This document shows, piece by piece, positions 1 to 19,767 of a stretch of DNA of 34,053 nucleotides (its first letter is position 1; each line of letters begins with the position of its first letter). Made by a program: the position numbers and the translations under genes. This DNA comes from a virus: the IMG/VR virus record IMGVR_UViG_3300036045_000043, positions 1 through 34,053 of that record; one strand, given 5' to 3'. Under the pieces are notes generated by a model. It had not been told where the DNA came from. It was given only the letters and a program-made list of their open reading frames with translations, and made no database searches.

Positions 1-64
1 TGTTCAGCGGATCGACGAGACGGCCCGTGAACGTGCCGATGTGTCCTTTACTGTAACCAGGCAT
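1..64 (-). CDS. 5' end of a gene leaving the window; possibly an HD-type phosphohydrolase
   Basis: A reading frame opens with ATG at 64 and stays open to the window edge, giving 21 residues that begin MPGYSKGHIGTFTGRLVDPL. The ATG lies inside the last codons of endonuclease I (17-nt overlap). It is preceded by GGAGAGAAGG, a usable Shine-Dalgarno, so the start is credible and continues the tight coupling of this operon. The segment 'TFTGRLVDPLN' resembles the N-terminus of phage HD-domain phosphohydrolases, which often open with a 'TyTGr..dpLnP' stretch. That family call rests on about ten residues and is tentative; only the presence of a gene is well supported. Confidence 0.5.
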   Translation of the reverse strand, partial: MPGYSKGHIGTFTGRLVDPLN

Positions 65-467
65 CCGGCACCTTCTCTCCTACTGCGCACTCGAATCCTT
101 TGGATTTGGCCCACTCGGAATAGCGGATACGCTTCTTAGCCGTCGTGTAGTTGTCCCGCATGAAAAGGAGTCGGAGCTTCACGTCTGCCCGGTTCGCGAC
201 GAACTCGACCAGCTGTGTGCGATTGGCCGACGTGAGTCGTCCCTTTAGTTCTATGAACTCGCCGCGCACTTTCAGGTCCGGCGTGTAGCGAGCCACGCGA
301 CCTACGTCGCGCCCCCCACATGCGCGGCAGTGCGCGGCGCGGACTGGCCGGATGTACGTGAACGTTTCCTTTTCGTACTCGTACTTGACGCCGCGCTTAT
401 CCAAGTCCGCACACACGCGCGACTCGAACCCGGAGCGCTTGCCTTTGGCGCGCTTAAACCGGGGCAT
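48..467 (-). CDS. T7 endonuclease I-like Holliday junction resolvase
   Basis: This 139-residue protein resembles phage T7 endonuclease I (gp3), which resolves branched DNA during replication, recombination and packaging. The order matches: 'RSGFESRV' with the first acidic residue E15, 'RGVKYEYE' (E30/E32), 'RYTPDLKV' with D64, then 'EFIELKGR' with E73 and K75, the PD-(D/E)xK core. The length is close to T7's 149 residues. An insertion between the second strand and the YTPD motif contains 'HCRACGG' (46-52), which T7 lacks. It may be a metal knuckle, but only three candidate ligands are visible. The ATG overlaps the end of the upstream small gene by 14 nt and overlaps the next gene downstream, so it sits mid-operon. 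Confidence 0.88.
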   Translation of the reverse strand: MPRFKRAKGKRSGFESRVCADLDKRGVKYEYEKETFTYIRPVRAAHCRACGGRDVGRVARYTPDLKVRGEFIELKGRLTSANRTQLVEFVANRADVKLRLLFMRDNYTTAKKRIRYSEWAKSKGFECAVGEKVPDAWLQ

Positions 468-654
468 CTTCGATCACTTCCGATACGTCCTCGTAATCCT
501 CCGGACTGCCTACACGGCGCAAGTAGCACTTGCCGCCGTCTACCGCGAAGTCCTTGCCGGCCGCACACTCATGCCAACGAAAATCGTGTACATGAGTAGA
601 CTCAATGACCTTTCCGCAATGGCGGCACTTGGCCGCGTTACGAATGATCTTCAT
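454..654 (-). CDS. small Cys-containing phage protein (DUF7695-like)
   Basis: 66 residues starting MKIIRNAAKCRHCG. The start at 654 is chosen over an in-frame codon at 669 because its ATG overlaps the TGA of the exonuclease gene (ATGA), the usual coupling signal here. The layout is an 'RNAAKCRHCGKVIES' knuckle, then 'HDFRWHEC', then 'AVDGGKCYLRR'. This recalls a widespread family of about 60-70-residue phage and plasmid proteins (DUF7695 in my recollection) of unknown function. The cysteines and histidines could bind one zinc ion. The position between exonuclease and endonuclease I places it in the DNA-processing operon, but no activity can be assigned. Confidence 0.75.
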   Translation of the reverse strand: MKIIRNAAKCRHCGKVIESTHVHDFRWHECAAGKDFAVDGGKCYLRRVGSPEDYEDVSEVIEDAPV

Positions 655-1457
655 GTCGGAGGTACCCACATTTCGTCAGGCTTGCGCCGTACCCACACGA
701 GACGAGCTGTCTCGATGGCGTACGCTTCGGCCTTATCCCCGTATGCTTCTTTATACGCGTCTAGTACGATTCGCCAACAATCTCTACTAGACTTTACGCC
801 GTCAAGTAAACGCTTCGCTCTGGCCGGGCCTATCCCTTCGATTCCAGGCACGTTGTCTGTGCTATCTCCGGACAGAACTTGTCCGTAGAACGCCAGCATC
901 CCCGCCTTCGGCGTTACCGTGACTTCTTCGTCCTTCGTCCAGTCGTAGTGAACTCCGGGGATTTGCAGTAAGTCTTTGTCGAAGGACGCGCCGACAACTT
1001 CCCCCGATTTCCACTTGGACATGTCGATACCGATAGCGTCGTCGGCCTCTTGGCCTTCGGCTATCTGCGCGTTCCACTTGTTGACCAAGTATTCCCTAAG
1101 CGCCTTGTGGTGCTTCGGGCGAGCTGCGGCGTCACGGTTCCCTTTGTACTTGGCCCGAGTCGCTATACGATCACGGAAGTTCCCTACGGATGGGGACAAA
1201 TGAACTCGAATTTGATTCCAATCGTATCTGTTAAACACCTTATCCAGAGACAGCTGTAGCAAGTGAATTGCGTTCTCGACTGGCTCGTATTCCTTGCGGG
1301 ACCAGATGTTCCCGCCGTTCTCGTGGGCGGCAGCTTCCTTGGCCGTATCGTATGGAAAGTAGTCCCCGTTACCTTCCACCAGGTACTTGGTCTTTTCGGC
1401 TGCGAACCCGCACCGATAAATGAACGCGTCGCCGTCAATCGAGAGGATTACTCCCAC
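651..1457 (-). CDS. 5'-3' exonuclease / flap endonuclease (PIN-FEN family)
   Basis: This 268-residue protein has the plan of phage flap endonucleases such as the T5 and T7-group exonucleases, which remove RNA primers and resect DNA. Metal-ligand acids appear at D8/D10 ('SIDGDAF'), E137-D139-D140 ('QEADDAIG') and D160/D162 ('SFDKDLLQ'). The DNA-binding helix-3-turn-helix is 'GDSTDNVPG' followed by 'GIGPARAKRLL' (198-218). The start codon is GTG; it overlaps the end of the SSB gene by 10 nt, and the gene's own stop overlaps the next start. No strong Shine-Dalgarno is visible, so translation is probably coupled. All catalytic acids expected from the family seem present. Confidence 0.9.
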   Translation of the reverse strand: MGVILSIDGDAFIYRCGFAAEKTKYLVEGNGDYFPYDTAKEAAAHENGGNIWSRKEYEPVENAIHLLQLSLDKVFNRYDWNQIRVHLSPSVGNFRDRIATRAKYKGNRDAAARPKHHKALREYLVNKWNAQIAEGQEADDAIGIDMSKWKSGEVVGASFDKDLLQIPGVHYDWTKDEEVTVTPKAGMLAFYGQVLSGDSTDNVPGIEGIGPARAKRLLDGVKSSRDCWRIVLDAYKEAYGDKAEAYAIETARLVWVRRKPDEMWVPPT

Positions 1458-2041
1458 GACTCGTCGGACTCTTCGGTTTCAGTAGCTTCCTCGGACTGTT
1501 CCGACTCTTCCTCTTCGGCCTTCGGAGCAGGCTTGCCCGCGTTGTTCGCGGCTTCCGTATACTTTCCGACCAGGTGCTCGATGTACGCCTCAATCACCTT
1601 GAGGCGATCCGCAGGCTTCGCCTTCTCAAGATTGAACGCACCATTTTCGAGAGCGACGCCAGCGGCCAGAATGGCCCGCTCAAGCGCAGCGAAATACGCG
1701 ATACGCGGCTCTTTGGCTGCGTCGGTCTCTGCCTTCTTGGTCCAGTATTCGTCTCGATTGCTGCCGCCGCTATAAGCTGGCTTCTTGTACGCCGACTTCT
1801 TGGCCGTAGGCGCTTCGTCGTCGCTATCATCGCCCCCCGGACTGTCCTCCAGAACTTCCAGGTCGCCTTTCAGAGTCGCCCACTTTTCGTCCTTGATAAA
1901 GTACGATCCGGAAACAAGATCGCCCTTGCTGACGCCAGGATTCTTCTTGCTTGCGCTGTACCACTTCTCGCCAATCTTGATCGAGTAGAAGCCGTAATCG
2001 TTCTTCTTCACAAACTCGACACGTCCCTTAACCGTAGCCAC
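1448..2041 (-). CDS. single-stranded DNA-binding protein (acidic-tailed)
   Basis: 197 residues. The first ~65 look like a short OB-fold beta barrel ('VKGRVEFVKKNDYGFYSIKI', then 'KKNPGVSKGDLVSG'). A linker and a helical part follow, and the last 25 residues are almost all acidic or polar ('EEEESEQSEEATETEES'). An acidic C-terminal tail that contacts replication partners is the hallmark of bacterial and T7-type SSBs. The position directly upstream of the exonuclease and just downstream of the polymerase in the same operon supports the role. The start is GTG at 2041 preceded by AAAGGAT. The C-terminus lacks the DDDIPF signature of bacterial SSB, so this is a phage-type protein. Confidence 0.75.
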   Translation of the reverse strand: MATVKGRVEFVKKNDYGFYSIKIGEKWYSASKKNPGVSKGDLVSGSYFIKDEKWATLKGDLEVLEDSPGGDDSDDEAPTAKKSAYKKPAYSGGSNRDEYWTKKAETDAAKEPRIAYFAALERAILAAGVALENGAFNLEKAKPADRLKVIEAYIEHLVGKYTEAANNAGKPAPKAEEEESEQSEEATETEESDESWE

Positions 2042-2055
2042 TAGTCGTTATCCTT

Positions 2056-2307
2056 TCAATACACAATTGCTTGAACAATTCCGCCCGCGCCGATGGGAAC
2101 AATTGTCCCGTTCAAGTACGCCTGCGGATTCTTTTCAAAGAATTCGTTTACCTGCCGCTCCAGCACTTCGATGCGCAGAGCTGTTAGGTAAATGACCTTT
2201 TCGGTGCGGGCTACGACAACCTCGCCATTAACCCCAATGGGTTCCGGATTTGATTTCGACTCCGAGTGGAACTCGAATTCGGTAGCCGTATAGTCTTTCG
2301 ATGACAT
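2056..2307 (-). CDS. hypothetical protein translated from inside the polymerase 3' end
   Basis: 83 residues, not recognised. It has a short polar N-terminus, a central 'RTEKVIYLTALRIEVLERQVNEF' helix that may be coiled coil, and a Gly/Ile-rich end. The start lies 80 nt inside the DNA polymerase gene in another frame, a long overlap. It is nevertheless well supported: GGAGGA sits about 8 nt before the ATG, one of the best ribosome-binding sites in the left operon, and no alternative ATG, GTG or TTG start occurs after the polymerase stop. The gene fills the gap between polymerase and SSB and is likely an accessory replication or early protein. Function unknown. Confidence 0.65.
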   Translation of the reverse strand: MSSKDYTATEFEFHSESKSNPEPIGVNGEVVVARTEKVIYLTALRIEVLERQVNEFFEKNPQAYLNGTIVPIGAGGIVQAIVY

Positions 2308-4030
2308 TCTTCACTTCCTCCGTAAAACAAGCATATAGAATTCTAGTGTACTCGTCAACACATTTTGGCGCGACTTCGGCAATGATCGAATCGTGAATAG
2401 TGTTAATGATTTCGACCGGCATATCCTTTATCGCGTGCCACACGAGCACTAGCGTTAGACAAATGATTTCCGCCGACGCGAACGACTGGATCGGGTAATT
2501 GAATATGGATGTCGTGTTGTCCACGTAACCGTCGCGACTGATCTTCGTCCCGGGCCAGTAAAACTTTAGCCCCCAGGGCGTCACGAGCTGGCCCGTCTTT
2601 AGTACCTCGTGTGTCCACGCCGTTTGCTCGGCGTACATCGTCGGGTACTTGTCACGAAACGCTTTGTAATAAGCCTTTTCCTTGTTAGTTCCGGAACGTC
2701 CTCCGTATAGCGGTTTGAACGTGTGTGCCTTGGCGTTCTGGCGGGTTACCCCAAGCACTTGCGCTGTCAGCGCGTGTACGTCGAATCCTTCCGTCGTCAG
2801 GTCTCGCAGCGCGTCCTTGTCCTTGGTCAAGTCCGTCGCTACACGGAACTCAAGTTGTGGCGCGTCGGCTTCAACTATCAGCCGGTCGCCCCGGCTGGCC
2901 TTGAACAGCTTCTTAAACGCTCTCTCGAAATTCTGGAACTGGAACCCGCCTTTACGGCCTGAACTTGATAGCCGGTGGGTAGCGGTTCGCGTTTGGTGAA
3001 ATTGAGCAAAGACATTCGTCTCCCCGCGACCTAGAGTCGCTTGCATCTTCTTGAGATTGTCGAACGGCTTCTTTAGCTTCGCTACTTCCAGCGCTGCTTT
3101 CTTGAATTCCTTCTGTTCTGGGGTAACCGCCTTCAACTCGGAGATAATTCCCTTCGCTGTCGGCAAAGCTCCAGCACCAGTTAGTACCGGCTTTCCGGAG
3201 TAATTCGTAGGCGGCTCGAATTTCAGAGTCCCGTACAGCATTTCGCGCATTTGCTTCGCAGAGCGCGGATTGATACCCCCGGCCAGCTTGTGCAGCTGGT
3301 CCGTAGCTTGAGAAAATTCCACTGCCGCTTTCGCGTACTCCGGGAGGACGCGTTCCGGGTCCGGTGTCATTCCCCGCGATTCGATCTCCGCCAGGCACGG
3401 CGTCACCAGGTTTCTTGAATAGGTAACGGGCAGCAGTCCACCAGCCGATAAACGGCCCCGTTGCTCTAGGAAAATTTTTTCGCATAGGTCTACGTCTCTT
3501 TGGCAATATTCAATAAGAAGGTTCGCAGGTATTTCTGACGGGCAAACGCCCGATCCTATAAGTGCTGATACAACAGATTCCTTCCCCCCATAGCCATATG
3601 ACGTTGCGACGGACTCAAGGCTAAGGGGTCGCTTGACGTTCCCGTTAAGGACGTATTGTCCGATTTGCGTGCAGAATCCGAAGATTGTTCGCAGGTCAAT
3701 TCCGCATCGGGCGAGCCACTGGTACTCAAACTTAAGGTTGTGAGCAACCACGAATTTAGCGCTTTGTATGTCGCTAACAAGTCGGCCTTGCTCAAACTCC
3801 GATCCGAAGCAATGATGATCTCTAGGCCCGAGCTTGGCCCCTGGATGCTCATTGCCGAGACGCCAACAGGCAAGAACGATAGAATTTCGTCCCTCCAAAG
3901 CACTCCCGGAATCGAGACTTGAAGTCTCAAAATCGAGGCACACGTAGCTTCCGGATAGGTAGACATCAGGCTGCGGCTCCGTAACAAATTTCGGCAAACA
4001 CAGCTTTTGTGCGTTCTTTTCCAAGTTCAT
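2228..4030 (-). CDS. family A DNA polymerase with 3'-5' exonuclease domain
   Basis: 600 residues. The N-terminal proofreading domain shows Exo I 'CLDFETSS' (D33, E35), Exo II around 'AHNLKFEYQWL' (96-106) and Exo III 'YCQRDVDLCE' (Y175, D179). The polymerase domain shows motif A 'EADAPQLEFRV' (D389), motif B with R430, K434, F438 and Y442 ('RQNAKAHTFKPLYGG', where most relatives have FG rather than FK), and motif C 'NTIHDSIIAEV' (H546, D547). It is shorter than T7 gp5 (704) but complete. It is the replicative polymerase, working with the helicase, primase and SSB of this operon. The ATG, preceded by GAGGCGG, lies 65 nt inside the ligase gene, and its 3' end hosts the start of the next gene. 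Confidence 0.95.
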   Translation of the reverse strand: MNLEKNAQKLCLPKFVTEPQPDVYLSGSYVCLDFETSSLDSGSALEGRNSIVLACWRLGNEHPGAKLGPRDHHCFGSEFEQGRLVSDIQSAKFVVAHNLKFEYQWLARCGIDLRTIFGFCTQIGQYVLNGNVKRPLSLESVATSYGYGGKESVVSALIGSGVCPSEIPANLLIEYCQRDVDLCEKIFLEQRGRLSAGGLLPVTYSRNLVTPCLAEIESRGMTPDPERVLPEYAKAAVEFSQATDQLHKLAGGINPRSAKQMREMLYGTLKFEPPTNYSGKPVLTGAGALPTAKGIISELKAVTPEQKEFKKAALEVAKLKKPFDNLKKMQATLGRGETNVFAQFHQTRTATHRLSSSGRKGGFQFQNFERAFKKLFKASRGDRLIVEADAPQLEFRVATDLTKDKDALRDLTTEGFDVHALTAQVLGVTRQNAKAHTFKPLYGGRSGTNKEKAYYKAFRDKYPTMYAEQTAWTHEVLKTGQLVTPWGLKFYWPGTKISRDGYVDNTTSIFNYPIQSFASAEIICLTLVLVWHAIKDMPVEIINTIHDSIIAEVAPKCVDEYTRILYACFTEEVKNVIERLYGYRIRVPLGVEIKSGTHWG

Positions 4031-4616
4031 CCGCCTCGAATGTTTTCTTAAGCATTCCGCCGCTGGCCGTGTGATAGATCACTATGCCTTCCGGATTCAT
4101 GTAGCCCGGACTAGCCGTTGATCCGTACTTCTGCAAATCCTGCAACGTTTGCTCTACTTGACACTCACTGAACTTCCCGGCGTACAGCGTAGGCACAAAG
4201 TTCACGCACTCCGGCAGCGAAGCGGGCTTCGCGCCAATGAACAGCGAGAAGTTACGTTTCGTTTGATCGTACCCTCGCTGAATACCGCGTCCCCACCATT
4301 CACCCCGGAACCATCCCGGCCCCATCTGCGCCAGCTCTCCCGCGTTCTCCATGACCCACTTCGCGAACCCGAAGTTGTCGTTCACTTCGGTAAGCCATCT
4401 ATTCCGCGATCCGGCCAGGATTGCTAGCGGCGTATCGCCGTCTCCGAATCCAGGCAGAATGTCCAACACTTCGGCGCTCTCTTTCGCAACAGAAAGCTTC
4501 GATTCGGAATCAAGCGCAACAAGGGCGATGGTTCCGTTAGTGCCGTCGATCTTCTCAGATATGACCATGTTGCTAGTCCACCTGGGTATTTTAGAGAAGG
4601 GCTTGAATTCTACCAT
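3966..4616 (-). CDS. RNA-ligase-family nucleotidyltransferase
   Basis: 216 residues with the ordered motifs of covalent nucleotidyltransferases (RNA ligase family): motif I 'EKIDGTNG' with the predicted adenylylated lysine K22, 'AGSRNRW' (68-74), 'FRGEWWG' (103-109), 'PEGIVIY' (175-181) and 'LKKTF' (189-193) as motif V. The protein is short and has no added OB-fold or zinc domain, so it is a minimal ligase core like the small RNA-ligase-type enzymes of other phages. It may seal nicks in RNA or DNA; the substrate cannot be read from sequence. It sits directly before, and overlaps, the DNA polymerase gene, which favours a role in replication or nick repair. AGGAC lies about 10 nt before the ATG. 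Confidence 0.82.
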   Translation of the reverse strand: MVEFKPFSKIPRWTSNMVISEKIDGTNGTIALVALDSESKLSVAKESAEVLDILPGFGDGDTPLAILAGSRNRWLTEVNDNFGFAKWVMENAGELAQMGPGWFRGEWWGRGIQRGYDQTKRNFSLFIGAKPASLPECVNFVPTLYAGKFSECQVEQTLQDLQKYGSTASPGYMNPEGIVIYHTASGGMLKKTFEADELGKERTKAVFAEICYGAAA

Positions 4617-4633
4617 AGGTTTGTCCTAAATAT

Positions 4634-4987
4634 TTAGCTTGCCGGCGTTCGCGCGACTAACCCGTGCCTATTCGCAAACGCAGCAAGAGCAGATCGCCAT
4701 CGGTACGGCTGGCGGTAATCATGAATGTCCTGCAACTGTTCAAAAAAGCGTATCCCCACTTTGTTGACGTGGAGGTATTGTTCAAGATCGCTGTACTTAC
4801 TTACAAGATCGGCCACGCCGCCGCGGCTGTTCAAAGCAGGATGCCCGTCCGGTATCAGACACCCAATGGCGCATCGCAAACCGTCCGGCGTAATGTACGC
4901 GCACGTGCCGCCATTGGGAAACTGCGCCCGTTTCTTTTGCGCGAGCAAATGATCGCGGACCTTGTTGTAGATTTGTTGCTTGATCAT
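4634..4987 (-). CDS. conserved phage hypothetical protein
   Basis: 117 residues beginning MIKQQIYNKVRDHLLAQ. The start at 4987 is preferred over an upstream in-frame GTG at 5071 because GGGAG stands about 9 nt before it, while the upstream extension reads like noncoding sequence. A central segment 'NGGTCAYITPDGLRCAIGCL' with a Gly-Thr-Cys and an Ala-Ile-Gly-Cys motif is typical of a widely seen phage protein of unknown role that opens with a 'DHLL.Q...' helix. The remainder is helical and basic at its end ('RWRSALAAFANRHGL'). Function unknown. It lies just upstream of the ligase in the same operon, 17 nt apart. Confidence 0.75.
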   Translation of the reverse strand: MIKQQIYNKVRDHLLAQKKRAQFPNGGTCAYITPDGLRCAIGCLIPDGHPALNSRGGVADLVSKYSDLEQYLHVNKVGIRFFEQLQDIHDYRQPYRWRSALAAFANRHGLVARTPAS

Positions 4988-4992
4988 TTCGT

Positions 4993-5067
4993 TCACTCCC
5001 GTTCTGGGATCGTTCGTTCCGAATGCATTTCGCACATCCCGTGCTCGCTCCAGCCTGAATGCAGCAT
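4993..5067 (-). CDS. possible 24-residue micro-ORF
   Basis: Between two clear genes, ATG at 5067 opens a 24-codon frame (starting MLHSGWSEHGMC) ending 5 nt before the next start. GAGGAG sits only about 3 nt upstream, which is too close for an ideal site. It could be a leader peptide that passes ribosomes to the following gene, or chance. Coding character cannot be judged at this length. Confidence 0.22.
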   Translation of the reverse strand: MLHSGWSEHGMCEMHSERTIPERE

Positions 5068-5078
5068 GCACTCCTCGC

Positions 5079-5411
5079 TCACTTCGCCTGCTCCTTCGCG
5101 AGGGCGGCGCGGATGGCGCGGTAATAGCTCTTAATATCGCGCCTGATATGATTCTGGCTCAACTCTTTGAACGCTGCGTCGAATACAGACTCGCTCGGCT
5201 CCTCCGGCATCACGACGGGCGCGGCGGGTATGTTTTCGAAGCGTGAAGCCAAGTCCCAACGAGGGCTACCGTCGCTTAGCGAATCTTTCCGTTTAGCGAC
5301 ATAGGCCACCCAAACTTCGCCTCCAAATATTCTTGTGCCGACCACATCTACGTAGGCGTCGAGACAATCAGCCTCGTCAATGAGTCTCACCGGCTTCGTG
5401 AAATCGGTCAT
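5079..5411 (-). CDS. hypothetical protein
   Basis: 110 residues, not recognised. It opens 'MTDFTKPVRLIDEADCLDAYVDVVG' with a beta-strand-rich first half ('GGEVWVAYVAKR'), then a Pro/Glu-rich linker and a helical, basic C-terminus ('DIKSYYRAIRAALAKEQAK'). Its ATG overlaps the TGA of the upstream gene (ATGA), so it is translationally coupled. It belongs to the run of six small coupled genes between helicase and ligase. No transmembrane segment or signal peptide is visible. Confidence 0.65.
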   Translation of the reverse strand: MTDFTKPVRLIDEADCLDAYVDVVGTRIFGGEVWVAYVAKRKDSLSDGSPRWDLASRFENIPAAPVVMPEEPSESVFDAAFKELSQNHIRRDIKSYYRAIRAALAKEQAK

Positions 5412-5740
5412 GGCGTCTCCCCCTCCCTCTTTTCCCCGATCTCGGTCAGCACTTCGTCAATCACGTCTTTGGCATAGGCCGTGCTGTGTCCGCACACATC
5501 GCAACGATGATCGGCGTCGTACTCGTGTGGTGCTTGCTTTACACAGTGCAGATTCTCGCGTACGGCGCGCAACGCCTTCACGGCGCGCGCGTACTTGTAT
5601 TTCAGATCGGCATCGTCGTCTGGCAACAGCGCGCGGCAACACTTCGCGCACACGAAATCGCCGAGAAAGTCATACGCGACTTGCTGCCCGCAACGGCCGC
5701 ATATCGCGGTCTCGTCTAGAGGCACGGTGCGGTCGCTCAT
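5408..5740 (-). CDS. hypothetical zinc-finger-like protein
   Basis: 110 residues with paired cysteines near the N-terminus (C14xxC17, C31xxC34, within 'CGRCG' and 'CAKCC') that could hold one zinc ion as a ribbon. A helical middle and a second 'HRCDVCGHS' pair (C80, C83, with nearby His) follow. The C-terminal 'VLTEIGEKREG' recurs in the 6272-6706 product ('LLAEIGKKREG'), so the two genes share a tail module. It is coupled on both sides by ATGA overlaps. A nucleic-acid-binding or protein-bridging role is possible but not shown. Confidence 0.65.
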   Translation of the reverse strand: MSDRTVPLDETAICGRCGQQVAYDFLGDFVCAKCCRALLPDDDADLKYKYARAVKALRAVRENLHCVKQAPHEYDADHRCDVCGHSTAYAKDVIDEVLTEIGEKREGETP

Positions 5741-6066
5741 GGCGTTTCTCCCGGCTGCGGAAACGGAAACCCATCGCGCTTACCTTCCGCGCGCAAAACG
5801 GCGTTCTCCGCTTGTAGCTTCTCGTTCTCCGCCTTCAACTCGCGAATCAAGCGCGGCAAATTGTGGTGCTCGTGTACGCAGTCCTCGCCGCACATCGCGA
5901 CGAAAGATTTGCGAACGTAGCCGCGATAGACGTTAAGGCGCTCGATCTCATCGGCAGCTGCTGTCACAGTACCGATGTCCTCGTGGTGATCGTGGACGTA
6001 CAGGTAGCCAACCATCGAGCGCAGAGAAGCCGCAAGGCTTCGGGGCTGTTCAACGAGTGCGATCAT
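5737..6066 (-). CDS. hypothetical coiled-coil protein
   Basis: 109 residues beginning MIALVEQPRSLAASL. The start at 6066 is chosen over ATG 6084 because it forms an exact ATGA overlap with the upstream stop. The middle has 'AAADEIERLNVYRGYV' and a Cys/His patch ('CGEDCVHEHH'), then a long heptad-like helix ('RELKAENEKLQAENAVLRAEG') that should dimerise, and a 'PQPGETP' end. The 'ADEIERLN' block resembles 'ANEIERLN' in the 6272-6706 product, suggesting the two arose by duplication or share modules. Role unknown. Confidence 0.65.
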   Translation of the reverse strand: MIALVEQPRSLAASLRSMVGYLYVHDHHEDIGTVTAAADEIERLNVYRGYVRKSFVAMCGEDCVHEHHNLPRLIRELKAENEKLQAENAVLRAEGKRDGFPFPQPGETP

Positions 6067-6275
6067 TGCGATTGCCTCACGCACGTTGCGATGATTGTTG
6101 GTGGGTAGAACACGTCGCCATTAACAAGCCGTCCAGCAAAACGCGGGGGCGCTGCGTACAGCGCTTTTAGCGCCTGCTCACACTCGCTTGCGGACTGAAA
6201 CAACGTCTGATTACTGCTGACGGCGTTATGCGTACCGGATGACACGACAATCCAAATCAGAATCCATTTGCTCAC
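6063..6275 (-). CDS. small exported or membrane-anchored hypothetical protein
   Basis: 70 residues. The N-terminus 'MSKWILIWIVVSSGTHNAV' is a short hydrophobic stretch after one lysine and reads as a signal peptide or weak anchor. The mature part has two cysteines ('ASECEQALKAL' and 'IIATCVRQS') that could form a disulphide, the pattern of many small periplasmic phage proteins. It is coupled at both ends by ATGA overlaps. A role at the cell envelope (for example superinfection interference) is possible given the early position, but nothing in the sequence proves it. Confidence 0.62.
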   Translation of the reverse strand: MSKWILIWIVVSSGTHNAVSSNQTLFQSASECEQALKALYAAPPRFAGRLVNGDVFYPPTIIATCVRQSQ

Positions 6276-6706
6276 GTTACGCCCTCTCTCTTTTTTCCGA
6301 TCTCGGCCAGAAGCGCGTCAATGCGCGCCCTGAATTGCAATTCCTCTTCCTCCCAGCCGCGCGGATCAATTCGCAAACAGTCCCACACAACGTCATCTTC
6401 AGGCGTCAGGCGCTTACGGCACTCCCGCAGTTCAGACAACAGCCTCACGTTCTCCGCCTTCATCTTGCGCACCGCTTCTTCTAGCGTGTACAGATTGCTT
6501 ATCGCCGGATCGCCCATTGCGGTTGTAACCTCGCGCAATTCCTTACGGCAACCTTCAAGGCATTCGCAAGCGTACGAAAGGTCCTCGTTTAAGCGCTCGA
6601 TTTCATTGGCGGAATCATTCAGCAGCCGTCCAACCGGCAAAAAGCTACTGTCGATCATGTACTCGTTTTGCGCAACAGAACGGCAGTCCTGCGATAGAGC
6701 GTTCAT
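6272..6706 (-). CDS. hypothetical coiled-coil protein
   Basis: 144 residues, mostly helical: 'ANEIERLNEDLSYACECLEGC', then 'AVRKMKAENVRLLSELRECRKRL', both with heptad-like spacing, so an elongated dimer is likely. The end 'ARIDALLAEIGKKREGVT' matches the tail of the 5408-5740 product. The ATG overlaps the stop of a 39-residue upstream gene (ATGA), and its own stop overlaps the next start. Not recognised as a known family. Confidence 0.65.
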   Translation of the reverse strand: MNALSQDCRSVAQNEYMIDSSFLPVGRLLNDSANEIERLNEDLSYACECLEGCRKELREVTTAMGDPAISNLYTLEEAVRKMKAENVRLLSELRECRKRLTPEDDVVWDCLRIDPRGWEEEELQFRARIDALLAEIGKKREGVT

Positions 6707-6822
6707 GGCTGTTCCTTGTAGTACCTGCTACGCCAAAACCAACACACGAAGCAGAAGTAGCACCGATGGCCGGGGAAAACACGGCTTCGTGTTTTCCTAT
6801 TGCAGCATCGGCAAGTGTTCAT
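6703..6822 (-). CDS. 39-residue Cys-rich protein
   Basis: A short frame from ATG 6822 gives 39 residues with six cysteines: C4, C6, C7, then 'HRCYFCFVCWFW' (C21, C24, C27), with basic residues between. The spacing suggests a single zinc-binding knuckle followed by an aromatic segment. Its stop overlaps the next gene's start by an exact ATGA, the same coupling used by the five genes after it, and AGGA lies about 10 nt upstream. Those two facts make a real gene likely despite its size. Function unknown. Confidence 0.55.
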   Translation of the reverse strand: MNTCRCCNRKTRSRVFPGHRCYFCFVCWFWRSRYYKEQP

Positions 6823-6883
6823 TAGCGAATCCTAGCGCGAGTTCTACTAGATGTCAAGACCCCATTGATCCGCCATAGCCTCG

Positions 6884-8080
6884 TCACGAGATTAAGCCGG
6901 TTATAGGATCAAACGATACGGAAAACGTAGCGTGATTCCCCGACAACTTGTTTTTAGGCAGGGACACGCCAAGCAATCCGTTGTTCGTCATGTGATCGTC
7001 TCCGCCTACTCCGATCATCAGGTCTACAGCTGCGGGGATACCTGTCTTTGATCCATCAATGTCGTTCAACGCCAGGTATATCTTTCCGCTCGCCGAGTCC
7101 CCGGCTTGCGTAATGGACAGGACCAGCAGCCCGTACTTCTTCGCCAAGTTCCGGGCCTCCGTCGCGCACGTCTCCAGCTGATTAGTCCGGGACTCGGATT
7201 TAACCGACAGGTTCCGCAACTGATCCAATACCAATACGTCCGGACGCTCTTGTTCCACAAGCGCCGTAATCTCCGGGAACGATCCGGGCGACAAGGCGGC
7301 GATCTTCAATCGCCCTTTCATCTTCTCCTCAAGCTGTTTAGCCGCATCCTTCGGATTCTCCCGAATCTCTGCTTTGGACTTACGGAGCAACCGCATACGG
7401 AACCGTGTACGGATGTCTACCGCCGGCTCCTCGTTACCGATGTACAGCACGGACAAGTTCTGGGCTAGAAACCCGGCGCACATGTTGATCGCGAACGCCG
7501 TCTTTCCTTTCTCAGGCCTAGCCACGATCAGGATGTGGTGTCCCTTCGACGCTCCGCCGTCGCAGTACTCCGTAAGCTGCTTCGGCCACAGCTTTATGAG
7601 CTTGTCTTTAGCTGCGTCCTTGGACTCCAGGTCATCGGTCGCGAACACGTCTATGATTTCGTGCGAGCGACCTTCCTTAGCCGCCAGGACATCCGTAGAC
7701 GAGTAGTCGGCTATAAGCTTGGATATGTCCCGCTCGTCTCCGCCGTTAGCAAGCGCCAACGAGAGCTTGTCTCCGACAGCTTTTCGTCGATTTGCAACGA
7801 TGTCTGCAACAAGGTTGGGTCCGGAAACATCCGCAGGAAATCCTCGCACATATTCAGCAAGTGCGGCCGAATGCTTTGGATTGGGAAGTTGTCGAGCTGC
7901 CCGCTCGATGACAACTTCTCCAGGCACACGTTGTACGCTCGAATCATGCTCTCTGTAGCCTCGGATAAGGCCAAAACAGAGTCGCCCCAGGGGGCTGAAA
8001 TCGGCTTCATTTCCGAATCGTCTAAAGGTCTCATACGCCTCTTTGCTCTCCATCAAAGTTGCCAAAATCCGCTGTTCCAT
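6884..8080 (-). CDS. DnaB-like replicative helicase
   Basis: 398 residues. The C-terminal RecA-like domain shows Walker A 'ARPEKGKTAF' (K193, T194), 'LYIGNEEP' (about 212-219, the H1a-like acidic motif), Walker B 'VLVLDQL' (D286) and 'LLVLSITQAGD' (318-328). The N-terminal ~140 residues are helical and shorter than in bacterial DnaB, whose usual length is 450-470. It should be the hexameric 5'-3' replicative helicase, paired with the separate primase encoded immediately upstream. The ATG, preceded by GAAGG, lies 50 nt inside the primase gene. In T7 the two functions are fused; here they are separate overlapping genes. Confidence 0.9.
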   Translation of the reverse strand: MEQRILATLMESKEAYETFRRFGNEADFSPLGRLCFGLIRGYREHDSSVQRVPGEVVIERAARQLPNPKHSAALAEYVRGFPADVSGPNLVADIVANRRKAVGDKLSLALANGGDERDISKLIADYSSTDVLAAKEGRSHEIIDVFATDDLESKDAAKDKLIKLWPKQLTEYCDGGASKGHHILIVARPEKGKTAFAINMCAGFLAQNLSVLYIGNEEPAVDIRTRFRMRLLRKSKAEIRENPKDAAKQLEEKMKGRLKIAALSPGSFPEITALVEQERPDVLVLDQLRNLSVKSESRTNQLETCATEARNLAKKYGLLVLSITQAGDSASGKIYLALNDIDGSKTGIPAAVDLMIGVGGDDHMTNNGLLGVSLPKNKLSGNHATFSVSFDPITGLIS

Positions 8081-8873
8081 CTTCGATTGCCTTCTCGATT
8101 GTTCGTTCCGTTTCGTACTTCAAATCTCGTGCCAATCTCCACGCTTTCCACGGTACGGATAAGCGTGGCCTGAATCTCTGTACGTACGTTAGGCTTTTCG
8201 AGAACGCGTCTCTATCTAACGCTACGTACACTTGTCTGTGTTGTGCGACGTGTCTGATTTCCTCGAACGCATCGTCCGTGATGTTCGTGCCGTTAAGGGA
8301 AACCCCGACACAATTTGGCACTTGCGACACCTTAAGCGCGCTGATGCAATCCTCCACCAGAACGATTTGATGCGATTCGCTCACATCACCGAACCACCCG
8401 ATGAAAGGCTCTTGCACGGTTTCCCTGTAATTCAGGGTTTTCGGCAAAAGTGTTCCAAAGGATCGCGCCACCCATCCCCGTAGCCCGTAGAACGGACCGG
8501 GACTGCGTACGGGAAACAGCACGCGCCCGGACTCCGGCGCGTACCGCAACGCATCGAGCGATTCCGGAGAAAGGTCGTACGCAAACGAAAGCTTCCGCCG
8601 CAACCGCACTGGCAAGTGCTCCATGATGCCGACAAAGAACATCGGACGCGCCTGGGCGCTAGGAACTACGTGACTGGTCCCGTACGATCTAATGCCGCAT
8701 GACGCGCGCCAGCAGATGTACGAGTACCCGCCGGACAGGCCGCGCGTGACCTTAAGTGACTTCTCTTTGCTATCCCCGCCTCTACACGCTAGGCAAATTC
8801 CTCTAGCTGTTTCCCCAGGCTCTAGCCACGCGTACTCCGTCTCTATGTACGCCGGATTAATTTGTCCCCTCAC
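8031..8873 (-). CDS. DNA primase (zinc-binding + TOPRIM)
   Basis: 280 residues. The N-terminal zinc ribbon has C27xxC30 ('ICLACRGG') and C54/C59 ('YICWRASCG'). A middle region and a TOPRIM fold follow, with the glutamate motif 'VLVEDCISALK' (E174) and the DxD motif 'VALDRDAFS' (D220, D222), which bind the metals for RNA primer synthesis. The order matches T7 gp4 primase and DnaG, trimmed. The start is GTG overlapping the upstream stop (GTGA). It works with the helicase encoded directly after it. The last 30 residues ('TIEKAIEDGTADFG') may bridge to the helicase (inference). Confidence 0.87.
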   Translation of the reverse strand: MRGQINPAYIETEYAWLEPGETARGICLACRGGDSKEKSLKVTRGLSGGYSYICWRASCGIRSYGTSHVVPSAQARPMFFVGIMEHLPVRLRRKLSFAYDLSPESLDALRYAPESGRVLFPVRSPGPFYGLRGWVARSFGTLLPKTLNYRETVQEPFIGWFGDVSESHQIVLVEDCISALKVSQVPNCVGVSLNGTNITDDAFEEIRHVAQHRQVYVALDRDAFSKSLTYVQRFRPRLSVPWKAWRLARDLKYETERTIEKAIEDGTADFGNFDGEQRGV

Positions 8874-9219: not shown

Positions 9220-9366
9220 TTAGGCTTCTTCCTCGTAACCGTCGGGCGGAACGTACAGCGGGCACACAATCGCCGCCGTGTCGTCGTCCAGCCAAGCCTG
9301 GGCGCAATTCCCGTCCATGATCTTTGTAAGCCCGCAGACAGAGCACTGCCTTAATCCGTTATCCAT
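9220..9366 (-). CDS. small Cys-containing hypothetical protein
   Basis: 48 residues beginning MDNGLRQCSVCGLTK, with C8xxC11, C21 and C35, possibly a zinc knuckle, and an acidic end 'PPDGYEEEA'. An in-frame ATG at 9477 would add 37 residues with a hydrophobic patch ('LTIGSTLLLVSTGYVG'). That extension crosses the putative left integrase arm sites next to attP, so the short form is preferred, though its ribosome-binding site (AAGG) is weak. After integration this would be the first gene next to the attachment junction. Confidence 0.45.
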   Translation of the reverse strand: MDNGLRQCSVCGLTKIMDGNCAQAWLDDDTAAIVCPLYVPPDGYEEEA

Positions 9367-9447
9367 AGCGATGTGTGCCTTTTTGCGCCCAACGTAACCC
9401 GTTGAAACTAAAAGTAAAGTAGAGCCTATAGTTAAGGTTCTACATAA

Positions 9448-9471
9448 GTTGCGACGTAACTTGTTGATTCT
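9448..9471. repeat. left putative integrase arm sites
   Basis: GTTGCGACGT (9448-9457) and TGTTGATTCT (9462-9471) both recur on the other side of the attP core: the first in the same direction at 9569-9578, the second inverted at 9558-9567. The first lies in a near-palindrome, AAGTT-7 nt-AACTT. Short repeats flanking a core are what tyrosine integrases bind with their N-terminal arm domain; the assignment is inferred from position and symmetry. Confidence 0.55.
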
Positions 9472-9507
9472 ATTCATGGTGCTGGCCTATAGTGGAATTG
9501 CACCTAG

Positions 9508-9547
9508 CATTACGAATGATGTGCTCTACCAGCTGAGCTAAAGCGGC
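9508..9547 (-). other. attP core: 5' half of a tRNA-Thr(CGU) gene
   Basis: On the minus strand these 40 nt read as the first half of a tRNA: acceptor strand GCCGCTT, D-arm GCTC..GAGC with loop AGCTGGTA, then the 5' anticodon stem CATCA and loop TTCGTAA with anticodon CGU (Thr). The 3' anticodon strand starts TG as it should and then departs from complementarity, and no T-arm or acceptor 3' strand follows. It is therefore not a tRNA gene but a copied half gene, the usual identity block between a phage and its tRNA integration site. The core overlaps the last codons and stop of the integrase gene, and the stop TAA is part of the anticodon loop. Confidence 0.85.
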
Positions 9548-10595
9548 TAGTGTCAACAGAATCAACAGGTTGCGACGTTTCCTTAGATTCGGACTTAACG
9601 AGTGTGGGTGAAAGTGTGTTGGCCTTGTTTGCAACATAAACGGCCAAATCGCCGGCGGCAAGGTGAGTGTACTTGTCCACGAGCTGCAAGCTTTTCCATC
9701 CGCCAAGCTCCTTAAGAGCTTTTATAGGCGTACCGGCCAGCACGTGCATAGTGGCCCAATGGTGGCGTAGATCGTGGAACCTGAATCCCACCGCGCCCGT
9801 CTCGGCGCACGCCTTGGCCCAGGACTTCTTGATAGTCCCTACCGGCGCACGCTGATTGTGGTCGGTGAACACGTAGGTGATGTGGCTCCCCACGCACTGC
9901 TCCAAAATGGCCTTAGCTCGCGGAGAGAGCGGCACAACTATGGGCCGTTTACCCTTGGCGGCGGAAGCCGGTATAACCGCCAGGTTATTGGCCAAGTCAA
10001 CCATGCTCCATTTAAGTTTGGTGACGTTAGCTCGGCGCAAACCCGTCTCTACTGCGAACGTGGCGATGCGGCGCGCGTGTTCAGGTAGCGCGGCCATCAC
10101 GCGATCAAGCGTGGCAGGGTCTATAGTGACAGGCTCGAACGCCTCTCCAGTATAGTTAGGCACTCTCCACGGACGGGTTAACCATCCCCACTCGAACGCC
10201 TTGTTTCCCAAGGCTCGAATGACTGCCATATGTCGGCGCACGGTAGTATGCCGATGTTGGCTAATCAAGTCCGTCCCATAGTCGGCAATAGTCGCGTTGC
10301 TGACGCTATCCAGGCGCACGCCTTTGCCTGCGCGAGAAAGGAACGCGTCCAATATAAGGCGATCTACCCACAAGCTTCTCTTTTCTCGCTTCTCTAGCAT
10401 CCAACGAGACGCGGCGTCATCTAACGTACGGTCGGACGTACCTAGTACCATTCCGTTGTACAAGTCCGCGCGAAGCTTCTCTTCGTAACGCTCGGCCTGC
10501 TTCTTGTCAGGCGTTCCGGTAGAGCGGCGAATCTCTTTACCCCTAAAAGTAAATTCGGTTTGCCAGTTGTCGGAGCCTTTACGCTTGTAGAGCAT
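9510..10595 (-). CDS. int: tyrosine recombinase integrase
   Basis: 361 residues. The N-terminal ~60 look like an arm-binding domain ('NWQTEFTFRGKEIRRSTG'), followed by a core-binding SAM-like domain (60-150) and the catalytic domain. Catalytic residues are R187 ('ETGLRRANV'), K214 or K216 ('SAAKGKRP'), H274-R277 ('FRFHDLRHHW'), W300 ('ELGGWKS', replacing the usual His) and the nucleophile Y309 ('VDKYTHLA'). The last residues from R351 ('RFSSAGRAHHS') are encoded by the tRNA-like attP core, so recombination leaves the coding sequence intact. It overlaps the preceding small gene by 17 nt. It should catalyse site-specific integration into a tRNA-Thr gene. Confidence 0.95.
   Translation of the reverse strand: MLYKRKGSDNWQTEFTFRGKEIRRSTGTPDKKQAERYEEKLRADLYNGMVLGTSDRTLDDAASRWMLEKREKRSLWVDRLILDAFLSRAGKGVRLDSVSNATIADYGTDLISQHRHTTVRRHMAVIRALGNKAFEWGWLTRPWRVPNYTGEAFEPVTIDPATLDRVMAALPEHARRIATFAVETGLRRANVTKLKWSMVDLANNLAVIPASAAKGKRPIVVPLSPRAKAILEQCVGSHITYVFTDHNQRAPVGTIKKSWAKACAETGAVGFRFHDLRHHWATMHVLAGTPIKALKELGGWKSLQLVDKYTHLAAGDLAVYVANKANTLSPTLVKSESKETSQPVDSVDTSRFSSAGRAHHS
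9558..9578. repeat. right putative integrase arm sites
   Basis: AGAATCAACA (9558-9567) is the exact reverse complement of the left TGTTGATTCT, and GTTGCGACGT (9569-9578) is a direct copy of the left site. They lie 10-30 bp from the core, inside the integrase coding sequence. Confidence 0.55.
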
Positions 10596-12724: not shown

Positions 12725-13228
12725 CTATACGTTTTGGTTAAACACATAGCCGCCATTAGTCATGTAGTAATCGCTAGTGAACAGATCGCGGGCGAAAGCC
12801 TCGTAGTCGAAGTATCGCGCTACGGTATCAGGCACTCCCAAAAAGAATCCCAGGTCGTCGGCCAGGCACTCGGCGTAAGCTTTCTTGCTTTCCCATTTGC
12901 CGCGATACGCATCGCGGAAACCCTCGATAGTGGCGTAGGCAAGGCCGATATAATCTGCCCATTCGATGAATGCCTCGCAGTCCTCGACTTCGCACAGTAT
13001 CTCTGTGAGCTGCGCGATTTCTTTAATCGAGGTGTACTCGCCGACTAGATCGCCGAAGCCTTCGGTATCGTGAATCGCGAATTCTTCCGCGCCCTCTTCG
13101 GACGACGCGGCCAACATGGCCGCGATCTCTTCGTAAATCTCGTCCGCGCCCTTACCTTCGCAATCGATCCATGAGCCGTGCAACGTGCCGGCGTTATAGC
13201 TGGCGAGACAAGCAACGTAGATTCTCAT
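12725..13228 (-). CDS. ardA: ArdA-type antirestriction protein
   Basis: 167 residues, strongly acidic, opening 'RIYVACLASYNAGTLHGSWID', the recognisable N-terminus of ArdA proteins. Further features are 'IHDTEGFGDLVGEY', 'EAFIEWADYIG', 'FRDAYRGKWESKKAYAE' and 'YFDYEAFARDLF', in the order expected across the three ArdA domains. ArdA mimics bent B-form DNA and blocks type I restriction-modification enzymes, so it would protect incoming phage DNA. The length matches the family (about 165-170). It sits close to the start of the leftward early operon, where early expression is useful. The Shine-Dalgarno is weak. Confidence 0.9.
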   Translation of the reverse strand: MRIYVACLASYNAGTLHGSWIDCEGKGADEIYEEIAAMLAASSEEGAEEFAIHDTEGFGDLVGEYTSIKEIAQLTEILCEVEDCEAFIEWADYIGLAYATIEGFRDAYRGKWESKKAYAECLADDLGFFLGVPDTVARYFDYEAFARDLFTSDYYMTNGGYVFNQNV

Positions 13229-13279: not shown

Positions 13280-13315
13280 TCAGCGGATCGTGCCGGTAGT
13301 CTGTAGGGCGCTCAT
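13280..13315 (-). CDS. 11-residue duplicate of a neighbour's N-terminus
   Basis: ATG 13315 overlaps the stop of the 177-residue gene (ATGA) and encodes MSALQTTGTIR before a TGA. The first eleven codons equal those at the start of that same gene because of a 32-bp direct repeat. It is probably a duplication remnant rather than a functional gene. Confidence 0.3.
   Translation of the reverse strand: MSALQTTGTIR
13283..13314. repeat. 32-bp direct repeat, copy A
   Basis: Identical over 32 bp to 13813-13844 (offset 530 bp). This copy covers the stop of the 177-residue gene and the 11-codon remnant. Confidence 0.95.
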
Positions 13316-13845
13316 GATTGCATCTCCTTGCGTACGTAATACTGCCGCTTATTTTTCAACTTCTTGATAGCTGTCTCTGCGCGCCGCAGCTTTTTTTGCC
13401 AACGAGCGGCCGCTGCATCAATCCGTGCGAGTTTCGATAGGGTCGTGTTTTGTAGTGGCTTAAACGCGCTCTTTAGAGAGCCGCGTAGCCAACCACGGCT
13501 CACTGCGTAGATAGCCATCTCGCGTTCGTGGTGGACGTGTCCGGGATCGTGGCCGCTTGCCTCTGGGTGCAAGAGAGAGAACACTAAATGTGACGTGCTG
13601 TGAATCAACTCGCGCCATCCGCGCTCTGGGTTCACGTAGAACACTCCGCCGCGAATGTAGCTGTAGCGGTTGCCGCTGGTAATTCGAAACGTTCCTTTGA
13701 ACGCCTTGCCCATACCGAAGCGATACAGACGCTTTGCGGCGCTCACAGCCTCTTGCGCGGACAGGGCCGGAATGTCGTCCGGCCACGCCGCGGCTACTTC
13801 GTCATACCGATCGCGGATCGTGCCGGTAGTCTGTAGGGCGCTCAC
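13312..13845 (-). CDS. conserved phage hypothetical protein with His-rich motif
   Basis: 177 residues from a GTG at 13845 that overlaps the upstream stop (GTGA). The middle reads 'WRELIHSTSHLVFSLLHPEA' followed by 'GHDPGHVHHEREMAIYAV', a dense His/Glu arrangement reminiscent of zinc-dependent protease folds and of a phage family with 'WrelIH..sH' and a closing 'GWLRGSLK'. The C-terminus is basic helix ('ARWQKKLRRAETAIKKLKNK'). No canonical HExxH is seen, so peptidase activity is not claimed. The gene is bounded by the two copies of the 32-bp repeat. Confidence 0.65.
   Translation of the reverse strand: MSALQTTGTIRDRYDEVAAAWPDDIPALSAQEAVSAAKRLYRFGMGKAFKGTFRITSGNRYSYIRGGVFYVNPERGWRELIHSTSHLVFSLLHPEASGHDPGHVHHEREMAIYAVSRGWLRGSLKSAFKPLQNTTLSKLARIDAAAARWQKKLRRAETAIKKLKNKRQYYVRKEMQS
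13813..13844. repeat. 32-bp direct repeat, copy B
   Basis: Second copy of the repeat, covering the first codons of the 177-residue gene. The repeats bracket the gene exactly at its two ends. Confidence 0.95.
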
Positions 13846-14000
13846 AACGGTCCCGCCGCGATCGGCCGCACGATGTAGCGCACTGCGCCGAACGCGGCAT
13901 CTTTGCGATCGGCGTAGCGGTACGCGGCGCGCGACGAGGTGAACTGGCGGAGCACCTTGCCGGTGCGGCCGTCGACGACTTCGTGAGTGATCTTCGTCAT
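13842..14000 (-). CDS. small basic hypothetical protein, first gene of the left operon
   Basis: 52 residues beginning MTKITHEVVDGRTGKVLRQF, then 'SSRAAYRYADRKDAAFGAVR' and a short tail. GGGAG is about 10 nt before the ATG and the stop overlaps the next GTG start (GTGA), both supporting a real gene. The 'v.dg.tGkvv..f.s...A.ry..rkd..yGa.r' pattern is seen in small phage proteins of unknown function. It lies just below the leftward promoter at 14045-14072. Confidence 0.65.
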   Translation of the reverse strand: MTKITHEVVDGRTGKVLRQFTSSRAAYRYADRKDAAFGAVRYIVRPIAAGPL

Positions 14001-14044
14001 GTCTCTGTTACTCCCGTCGCGCCCATCGCGACTCGATGGGGCGT

Positions 14045-14072
14045 ACTATACTAGAATTTCCGAAAGAAGCAA
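14045..14072 (-). promoter_or_regulatory. leftward early promoter
   Basis: On the minus strand TTGCTT (14072-14067) and TATAGT (14050-14045) are 16 bp apart, about 45 nt before the first gene of the left operon. Repeats CAACGGGTAA and CAACGGGTTA lie just upstream, 36 bp apart. Confidence 0.55.
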
Positions 14073-14127
14073 CGGGTAATTGAAAATATTTATATCCATA
14101 GGAATCAACGGGTTACAACTTTCTCTA

Positions 14128-14155
14128 TTGACGGGGGAGAAAGTCGTGGTATAAT
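14128..14155 (+). promoter_or_regulatory. strong rightward promoter P1
   Basis: TTGACG (14128-14133), a 16-bp spacer and a perfect TATAAT (14150-14155). The sequence from -10 onward (TATAATATTAGG..TACGG) is nearly the same as at P2, 967 bp downstream. No gene follows for more than 1 kb, so the first product is RNA. Confidence 0.8.
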
Positions 14156-14476
14156 ATTAGGGGTACGGGATAAAAACCTTACACCTAAGACCTGGATCGC
14201 AAGAAGCACGGAATAGCGTGCTCCCGACTAGGCCAGCCAAGATAGACATGGGGCTGATTAAACTAGTCTATGCCGCGCTGGACCCCAGCGATCTAGCCTT
14301 GCAAAGCTAGGGCAAACAGGTACAACACTATCCGCACTGTATGGGATAAGTGCCCTGCAAGTAGGCAACGGGACGATGCTAACAGCTGTCCCAAGATATC
14401 AACTATACGGGGTCCGAGATACATCGAGGCTCTTTGACGTAATGTACAGTGCACTAGTAACGTACAGTGTACGTAG
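14156..14476 (+). ncRNA. candidate structured RNA from P1
   Basis: Downstream of P1 no coding frame is supported but hairpins are frequent: AGCACG/CGTGCT (14205-14222), ATAGAC/GTCTAT (14242-14271), CGCTGG-ACC-CCAGCG (14276-14290), CTAGC/GCTAG (14293-14310) and GGGAC/GTCCC (14370-14392). This is either a discrete RNA or a very long leader. No clear terminator was found, so the 3' end is unknown. Confidence 0.4.
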
Positions 14477-14761
14477 AGCGCCCCCAAAGGGCGCTAGCAT
14501 GAAGCGTGTAGGCCGCTAGAGCGGCCAGCTAACAAGGGCGCTACGCGCCAGGTATCACGTACACAGGGCGCGCTCGGGGCGCGCTTGTAACGCGGCTCGA
14601 TTGAGCCGCTATTGATACAGTAACTACATTGTATCACTGTGGATACAGTGCACTGTGAGCGGCGACATCGGTAGATGGCGACGCGATGCCTTATAGTCTC
14701 ATGCACTGCGCGCATATAGCGCGCTATATGCTATACGCATACTGCATATGAACTGCGTATA
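14477..14761. repeat. array of hairpins and palindromes
   Basis: Successive inverted repeats: AGCGCCC/GGGCGCT (14477-14495), GGCCGC-TAGA-GCGGCC (14511-14526), GGCGC-TAC-GCGCC (14537-14549), GCGCG/CGCGC (14568-14584), GCGGCTC-GATT-GAGCCGC (14592-14609), TGATACA/TGTATCA (14613-14636), CACTGT-GGAT-ACAGTG (14635-14650) overlapping palindrome ACAGTGCACTGT (14645-14656), a perfect 20-bp palindrome (14712-14731), and TATACGCA/TGCGTATA (14732-14761). They are symmetric on both strands, so DNA or RNA could be the functional form. Confidence 0.8.
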
Positions 14762-14995
14762 GATCGTGTGGCATAACCTTGGCCATAGCTATATCCAGGC
14801 ACAGGATGATACACACTGATCGCGTAAGTTGTTGATTGTTCGGCGTAGATCACAGCATTGTTAGTGCGGTACAGCTGCGGAACTGCGGTCCTAGGACCTT
14901 TTGGGTGCCACCCCCACCCCCCGGGGGGCTATGAAGAAAACTGTGATACTACTCTCCCCACACGGCACGAAAAAATTCCGGTTCCATCCAGTAAA

Positions 14996-15090
14996 ATCAA
15001 GTACTTACGTAAATAGCGGGTCCCATCTCGTTCCGTTCCCAGGTCCCAGCGAAAAAGAATATCGTTATAGATCAAGCACTTACGATATTT
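14996..15090. repeat. imperfect direct repeat pair upstream of P2
   Basis: ATCAAGTACTTACG at 14996-15009 recurs as ATCAAGCACTTACG at 15071-15084, offset 75 bp. Each copy is preceded by a CGAAAAA stretch. The second copy ends 10 bp before the P2 -35 box. Possible regulator sites. Confidence 0.6.
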
Positions 15091-15094
15091 CTAG

Positions 15095-15122
15095 TTGACA
15101 GTACAGCTTTCCATGATATAAT
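15095..15122 (+). promoter_or_regulatory. strong rightward late promoter P2
   Basis: Perfect TTGACA (15095-15100), 16-bp spacer and perfect TATAAT (15117-15122), followed by the P1-like ATTAGG..TACGG. It lies 200 nt before the first late gene. Confidence 0.85.
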
Positions 15123-15321
15123 ATTAGGTATACGGATTATAGAATCTCGCGCGGGTATAAGAACAACCCTCCTCGGGTAGTTTCTCCACCTACCCGGCCC
15201 GCGCAGTGCGCCCGGTGACGCCAACGTAAGTCACCCCCAGGGGTATCCTCACCGTGGGTCAGCGGGGACACAGCTGACCAAGAGATAGGGCCTGTAAGGC
15301 CCTGTCCGCCTAACACTAAAC
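15123..15321 (+). promoter_or_regulatory. structured leader of the late operon
   Basis: Four consecutive hairpins: CGGGTAG/CTACCCG (15174-15196) enclosed by GCGCGGG/CCCGCGC (15149-15204); GGTGAC/GTCACC (15214-15235); GGTCAGC/GCTGACC (15257-15279); and a 9-bp stem GATAGGGCC/GGCCCTGTC (15284-15306) with loop TGTAA. No Shine-Dalgarno is seen between the last hairpin and ATG 15322. Confidence 0.55.
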
Positions 15322-19361: not shown

Positions 19362-19366
19362 CCCAC

Positions 19367-19759: not shown

Positions 19760-19767
19760 CTAGGTAA

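Follow-up and report, generated by a model that had tools for sequence, protein, structure and literature searches.

The virus record IMGVR_UViG_3300036045_000043 of the IMG/VR database (34,053 bases, analysed at its whole length and called here the window; it may be a fragment) carries at the end of its integrase gene a 40-nt block which very probably is the core of a working-type phage attachment site (attP) that is served by an integrase of the P22 class and whose target tRNA is reversed relative to the usual int orientation. This common core lies on the minus strand (9508..9547; reading from 9547 to 9508, GCCGCTTTAGCTCAGCTGGTAGAGCACATCATTCGTAATG) and corresponds to nt 1-40 of tRNA-Thr(CGU), i.e. 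the acceptor 5' strand, the D-arm, the 5' anticodon stem, the anticodon loop and the first 2 nt of the 3' stem. On the same strand, int (9510..10595) encodes a tyrosine integrase of 361 amino acids of the P22/SfII/AP3 type (Pfam PF00589, E=1e-24; PHROG phrog_1, 2e-51). The gene ends inside the block, with its TAA stop codon (9512-9510) being part of the anticodon loop sequence TTCGTAA, and the tRNA half overlaps the last 12 codons of int plus the stop, with the encoded tail reading RFSSAGRAHHS. Beyond the block, genes for replication with PHROGs matches (primase, DnaB-like helicase, RNA ligase, DNA polymerase, exonuclease and endonuclease) run leftward on the minus strand (48..8873), and the structural genes are found on the plus strand. 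Since phage genes are present on both sides, the block represents the attP of an unintegrated phage rather than the end of a prophage.

That the block is a fragment of a tRNA gene follows from ARAGORN finding zero tRNA genes in the whole window and from a score of 13.2 bits with the Rfam tRNA model, which is below the gathering score of 29. In a scan with one genome per species, the exact 40-mer occurred in 104 genomic stretches, nearly all of them alphaproteobacterial (Sphingomonas, Caulobacter, Phenylobacterium, Kaistia, Hyphomonas, Brevundimonas and others, as well as a few contigs labelled gammaproteobacterial), and at all 23 loci tested with ARAGORN a 76-nt tRNA-Thr(CGT) begins at the match. 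In all 104 stretches, identity with the window breaks after tRNA nt 40 on the 3' side (ATGG... in the host, CTAG... in the window) and at tRNA nt 1 on the 5' side, barring chance extensions of 1-2 nt. A match that is exact over 40 nt and has both of its ends at tRNA landmarks is not a chance match. A sequence-only reading of this DNA had taken the block for the 5' half of tRNA-Thr(CGU), had proposed a search for an exact tRNA-Thr-CGT match in bacterial genomes and had assigned the integrase C-terminus to the block, all of which is borne out here. Its further statement that the block stops at the 5' anticodon stem-loop has to be amended, because the match is indeed to the 5' tRNA half but reaches 2 nt further into the 3' stem. 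The 40-mer, together with weak protein similarity, suggests an alphaproteobacterial host; the portal protein has very low similarity (22–26%) to that of HMO-2011-like phages of marine alphaproteobacteria. Four of six host genomes also contain a tRNA whose anticodon loop reads TTTGTAA, as would fit a Thr(UGU) isoacceptor.

The integrase has the residues that characterize tyrosine recombinases (R, HxxR, W/H and Y), with R187, H274xxR277, W300 and Y309 all occupying invariant columns in an alignment of five integrases (the window plus four relatives), and its tRNA-encoded tail projects past the C-terminal ends of the four aligned relatives. Its nearest isolated relatives are the integrases of the Burkholderia phages AP3 and Milagro, followed by the P22/SfII group.

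Two exact matches to the consensus for integration host factor (IHF), WATCAANNNNTTR (taken from PMC8942017), flank the block, i.e. AATCAACAAGTTA on the far side of attP (9457..9469, minus strand) and AATCAACAGGTTG on the integrase side (9560..9572, plus strand), the latter being located within the int coding sequence at a position homologous to that of the site in relatives. Measured from the midpoint of the anticodon loop (9513), the centres of these predicted IHF sites are at −50 and +53 bp, and the window as a whole contains six exact matches, with 0.47 being expected. The core is also surrounded by a 23-nt inverted repeat with 83% complementary arms (9452-9474 and 9555-9577), each of which contains one of the IHF-consensus matches. 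A repeated motif, GTAANNNGTTGAT, was considered as an Int arm site or phage operator and rejected, its reverse complement being the IHF consensus.

IHF-like motifs also recur in the integrase family. Across 52 loci of the family, 37 copies of the related motif GTAAGTNNTTGATT occur at no more than 500 nt from the int stop (1.1 in shuffled sequences; 2.9 expected from the remainder of the 52 loci), and for the plain IHF consensus there is a 17-fold enrichment in this vicinity (1.12 versus 0.064 per kb). In the 13 relatives with a good site, the centre of the int-side site is 50.5–52.5 bp away from that of the anticodon loop (53.5 bp in the window by the same measure), although this constant spacing may partly mirror tRNA length, as the relatives' site is located just beyond the tRNA 3' end; the window has no tRNA 3' end, yet the spacing is kept. 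In SfII, AP3 and other relatives, the carried tRNA half breaks at or beside the anticodon loop. Thus, with IHF-consensus sites flanking it at a spacing shared by the relatives, the anticodon loop (TTCGTAA, 9510..9516, minus strand), which holds the int stop, is the putative overlap region, in which strand exchange would most likely occur as in P22/SfII. As in P22-type attP sites, the core is situated at the anticodon stem-loop of a tRNA gene, with the 40-mer ending 2 nt past the loop, and predicted IHF sites are found on both sides.

We infer the integration event, the exact strand-exchange point, IHF binding, expression of a rebuilt tRNA and regulatory effects from these features. A complex of Int and host IHF would form on attP, with bends introduced by IHF approximately 50 bp to each side of the anticodon loop, and attP would recombine with the tRNA-Thr(CGU) gene of an alphaproteobacterial host at its anticodon loop. 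With the phage giving the tRNA 5' half and the host retaining the 3' half, an intact tRNA would arise at the int end, i.e. at the junction attR. When attR was assembled in silico from the phage int end, the 40-mer and the host 3' half, a complete tRNA-Thr(cgt) was obtained with six of six different hosts, immediately downstream of int and on the same strand; neither attP nor the other junction, attL, contained a tRNA in silico. In this respect the window behaves as a 5'-fragment element, in which the tRNA 5' part in attP lets integration rebuild the tRNA. The junctions are predicted to read int…TGTTGACACTA-GCCGCTTTAGC…GTAATG-ATGGGGTC (attR) and host promoter-tRNA 5' half-CTAGGTGCAATTCC (attL). 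The int reading frame would not be altered by integration, because the stop codon is within the shared core. As a scan of the minus strand just upstream of the block detected no promoter-like site, the rebuilt tRNA would depend on transcription through int and would most likely be expressed by read-through of the int operon. At attL, the host promoter and the stranded 5' half would face leftward minus-strand open reading frames (ORFs) from 9477 to 48. The first frame to be reached is an ORF at 9220..9477 (minus strand, internal start at 9366) with no family match, and no terminator-like site was found in a scan of the minus strand from 9508 to 9200. Both outcomes, an intact tRNA downstream of int and a host tRNA promoter pointing into phage genes, had been foreseen by the sequence-only reading. 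Integration would also separate the leftward replication genes from int and the genes upstream of int.

In principle, this arrangement could operate as a regulatory switch, since the int transcript would include a complete tRNA only after integration. RNase P cutting at nt 1 of this tRNA would strip the last 12 int codons and the stop, leaving a nonstop mRNA and thereby shutting off int, with the same transcript supplying tRNA-Thr(CGU); integration would at the same time split the leftward gene block and bring the host tRNA promoter in front of the replication genes. We regard such a switch as improbable.

How unusual this geometry is can be seen from the relatives of the integrase. Among 80 close viral relatives, 49 had enough downstream sequence to be scored. 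Near the int stop, 35 of these had tRNA sequence in antisense orientation to int (a 3' half or a full tRNA), in line with the earlier statement that most tRNA-integrating phages carry the 3' part, and 12 had no recognized tRNA fragment. The remaining two were an antisense 5' half (L289, on the same contig as L223) and a sense 3' half (L312). The DNA beyond the L289 half looks phage-like (spanin-like and tail-fibre-like frames, as judged by eye), and no IHF-like site was found near this half. In L312, the anticodon loop reads CTTCACA, resembling that of tRNA-Val(CAC), and a site at +50 matches the IHF consensus exactly. In addition, 18 genome loci were scored from the two alphaproteobacterial orders to which a Sphingomonas and a Kaistia genome belong; seven had an antisense 3' half or full tRNA, five had an isolated antisense 5' half and six had nothing recognized. 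A sense 5' half was found in none of these 67 relatives (49 viral and 18 genome loci). Thus, beside the usual 3' antisense, the 5' antisense (L289) and the 3' sense (L312) arrangements, the window occupies the fourth corner, 5' sense. A 3' half antisense to int is the usual state of the family and not a requirement for belonging to it; the window departs from this state, as do L289 and L312.

The integrase tree joins the window to L289 (support 100/93) in a six-row clade that also includes L291, although the join of the window with L289 is uncertain since both have long branches. L291 carries an ordinary antisense 3' half with a tRNA-Thr(CGT) anticodon loop. As window, L289 and L291 share this clade, related enzymes seem to use a single target in three different geometries.

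At five genome loci (L374, L375, L381, L390 and L397), int directly faces an isolated tRNA-Arg- or tRNA-Pro-like 5' half that is broken at the anticodon stem. Integration of the 5' type (or one that breaks the tRNA) may be common in alphaproteobacteria, with these loci having been read at their int-side ends only. Outside of this integrase family, 119 stretches were chosen whose D-arm and anticodon loop resemble those of tRNA-Thr(CGU), and at least 18 virus contigs among them have a 5' half without the remainder, two of which also have a full copy nearby. Carriage of a 5' half is therefore recurrent, yet a minority state. Five virus contigs (L136, L148, L163, L166 and L190) share a tRNA-Thr(CGU) 5' half bounded by short inverted ACAGAG/CTCTGT-like repeats, and in L190 and L136 an integrase appears to start beside the half and to head away from it. 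In L117 (97-320) and L183 (near the contig end), a distance of only approximately 120-155 bp separates a broken tRNA-Thr(CGU) 5' half from a complete tRNA-Thr(CGU) on the same strand, which would fit a target that had been rebuilt or duplicated.

Several observations weigh against the block being a working attP core. No prophage junctions were found in any collection searched, neither a second contig with the window's attP nor a genome with a duplicated tRNA 5' half came to light (such duplicates were absent from 385 alphaproteobacterial genomes searched, of which only 40 had any match), no arm-type Int sites were identified with confidence in attP, no repressor gene was recognized in the window and the window integrase sits on a long branch. 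Searches of viral contigs with int, the 40-mer and the helicase gave no usable relatives, megablast of the attP region against phages gave nothing, and a search of phages with the 40-mer mainly returned full tRNA-Thr genes of T4-like phages. The tRNA half could thus be a relic, either captured host DNA or a decayed attP that no longer serves integration, with which the missing integrated copy and repressor would agree. A relic is hard to reconcile, however, with 40 of 40 nt being identical to present host tRNAs, with an open int with intact catalytic residues and with two predicted IHF sites that are both exact and have the spacing of the family, and we consider it very unlikely. Hardly more probable is the idea that the 23-nt inverted repeat acts mainly as RNA, i.e. 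as a hairpin at the int mRNA 3' end in the free phage only, in the manner of lambda sib-like retroregulation. Its complementarity, an RNA fold z of -3.3 and the fact that integration would part its arms speak for this, but the arms are centred on exact IHF-consensus sites, which are DNA elements conserved in the family and explain most of the repeat.

A further alternative concerns what follows integration and is compatible with the block being a working attP core. Integration might be transient or occur without stable lysogeny, with the host tRNA promoter driving the replication genes. These genes directly follow attP and share its strand, the scanned interval (9508 to 9200) being free of terminator-like sites, and T7-like cyanophages such as S-TIP37 and P-SSP7 integrate at tRNA-Leu with no stable lysogens having been found (PMC8776855). 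The absence of a recognized repressor, which makes stable lysogeny uncertain, fits as well; repressors are often unrecognizable, however, and a Rho-dependent terminator or a repressor-controlled regulation would be invisible to our scans. We see this as a possibility to be taken seriously, albeit as the less probable course.

Other elements in and around attP include a degenerate third copy of the flanking repeat (9392..9410, plus strand; 79% to 9454-9472; seen as direct repeat D1 and in the motif scan), which may be an outer attP arm element, and copies of GCCTATAGT at 9424-9432 and 9485-9493 (plus strand), which are possible arm-type sites or plus-strand promoter elements. Upstream of int, the leftward genes include one for an anti-restriction protein (12725-13228; phrog_2059, E=1e-34), and a perfect 32-nt direct repeat (13283-13314 and 13813-13844, 530 bp apart) brackets an ORF (13312-13845). 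Between leftward and rightward genes, there is a largely non-coding stretch of 1.4 kb (13850-15320) with three exact IHF-consensus sites (14103-14115, 14825-14837 and 14995-15007) and strong plus-strand sigma-70-like promoters at 15095-15122 (12/12) and 14128-14155 (11/12), which probably is the main control region of the phage. Among the portal-protein relatives of the phage (L274–L279), IMGVR_UViG_3300021517_000030 (L274) is 100% identical to window positions 19290-33469 over the 14,180 nt compared and ends before attP; int is present in two (L278 and L279), and no tRNA half was found near int of L278.

Overall, carrying a tRNA 5' half is rare and already known, and what is new here is the combination of half and orientation, the location of the integrase stop inside a tRNA and the splitting of the leftward gene block. 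Within one integrase family, the carried tRNA half and the target orientation vary separately, and an IHF-like site at approximately 50–53 bp from the anticodon loop accompanies many arrangements, including those of the window and L312. This supports the view that recombination requires only the anticodon stem-loop and the IHF/Int geometry, with the remaining carried tRNA serving to repair the target. The 5' sense case is a testable instance of a tRNA that needs co-transcription with an integrase gene whose stop it contains.

The closest known systems include those of the P22/SfII type, which target thrW and other tRNA genes, with related integrases (29-39% identity), an IHF-like motif approximately 52 bp from the loop and the int 3' end beside the core. 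SfII shares the anticodon loop TTCGTAA at the break point. SfII, AP3 and most relatives have the tRNA 3' half in antisense orientation to int, unlike the window, whose 5' half is in sense orientation and contains the end of int. In tRNA-dependent lysogeny (PMC10865867), a tyrosine integrase likewise targets a tRNA gene of the host and affects the tRNA supply, but those phages share approximately 10 bp with the bacterial attachment site (attB), encode a spare tRNA and do not rebuild the target. The window does not belong to this type, because its core is 40 bp long, the tRNA is rebuilt in silico and the window has no tRNA gene. Among 3,919 genomic islands in Islander, the tRNA fragment comes from the 3' part in 3,760 and from the 5' part in 159, and some integrases, i.e. 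those of Mx8 and SSV, are noted there to extend across attP (PMC4383910); recombination with the tRNA 5' part has been described as considerably less frequent (PMC6563490, citing Zhao & Williams 2002, a study known to us via citing papers only). With such 5'-fragment or reversed-orientation islands the window shares the carriage of the tRNA 5' part and a rebuilt tRNA without its own promoter; it differs from them in having the int stop inside the tRNA anticodon loop and in being a phage with a distantly HMO-2011-like portal protein. In archaeal 5'-type elements that are pTN3-like, the integrase promoter has been reported to drive expression of the rebuilt tRNA (PMC8371274). Whereas integrases of the pTN3 type are split upon integration, the window int is not a suicidal integrase of the SSV/pTN3 type, because its stop and last codons are in the shared 40-mer and int remains unchanged; it is a P22-type enzyme for a bacterial host, which stays whole while the target tRNA would be restored behind it.
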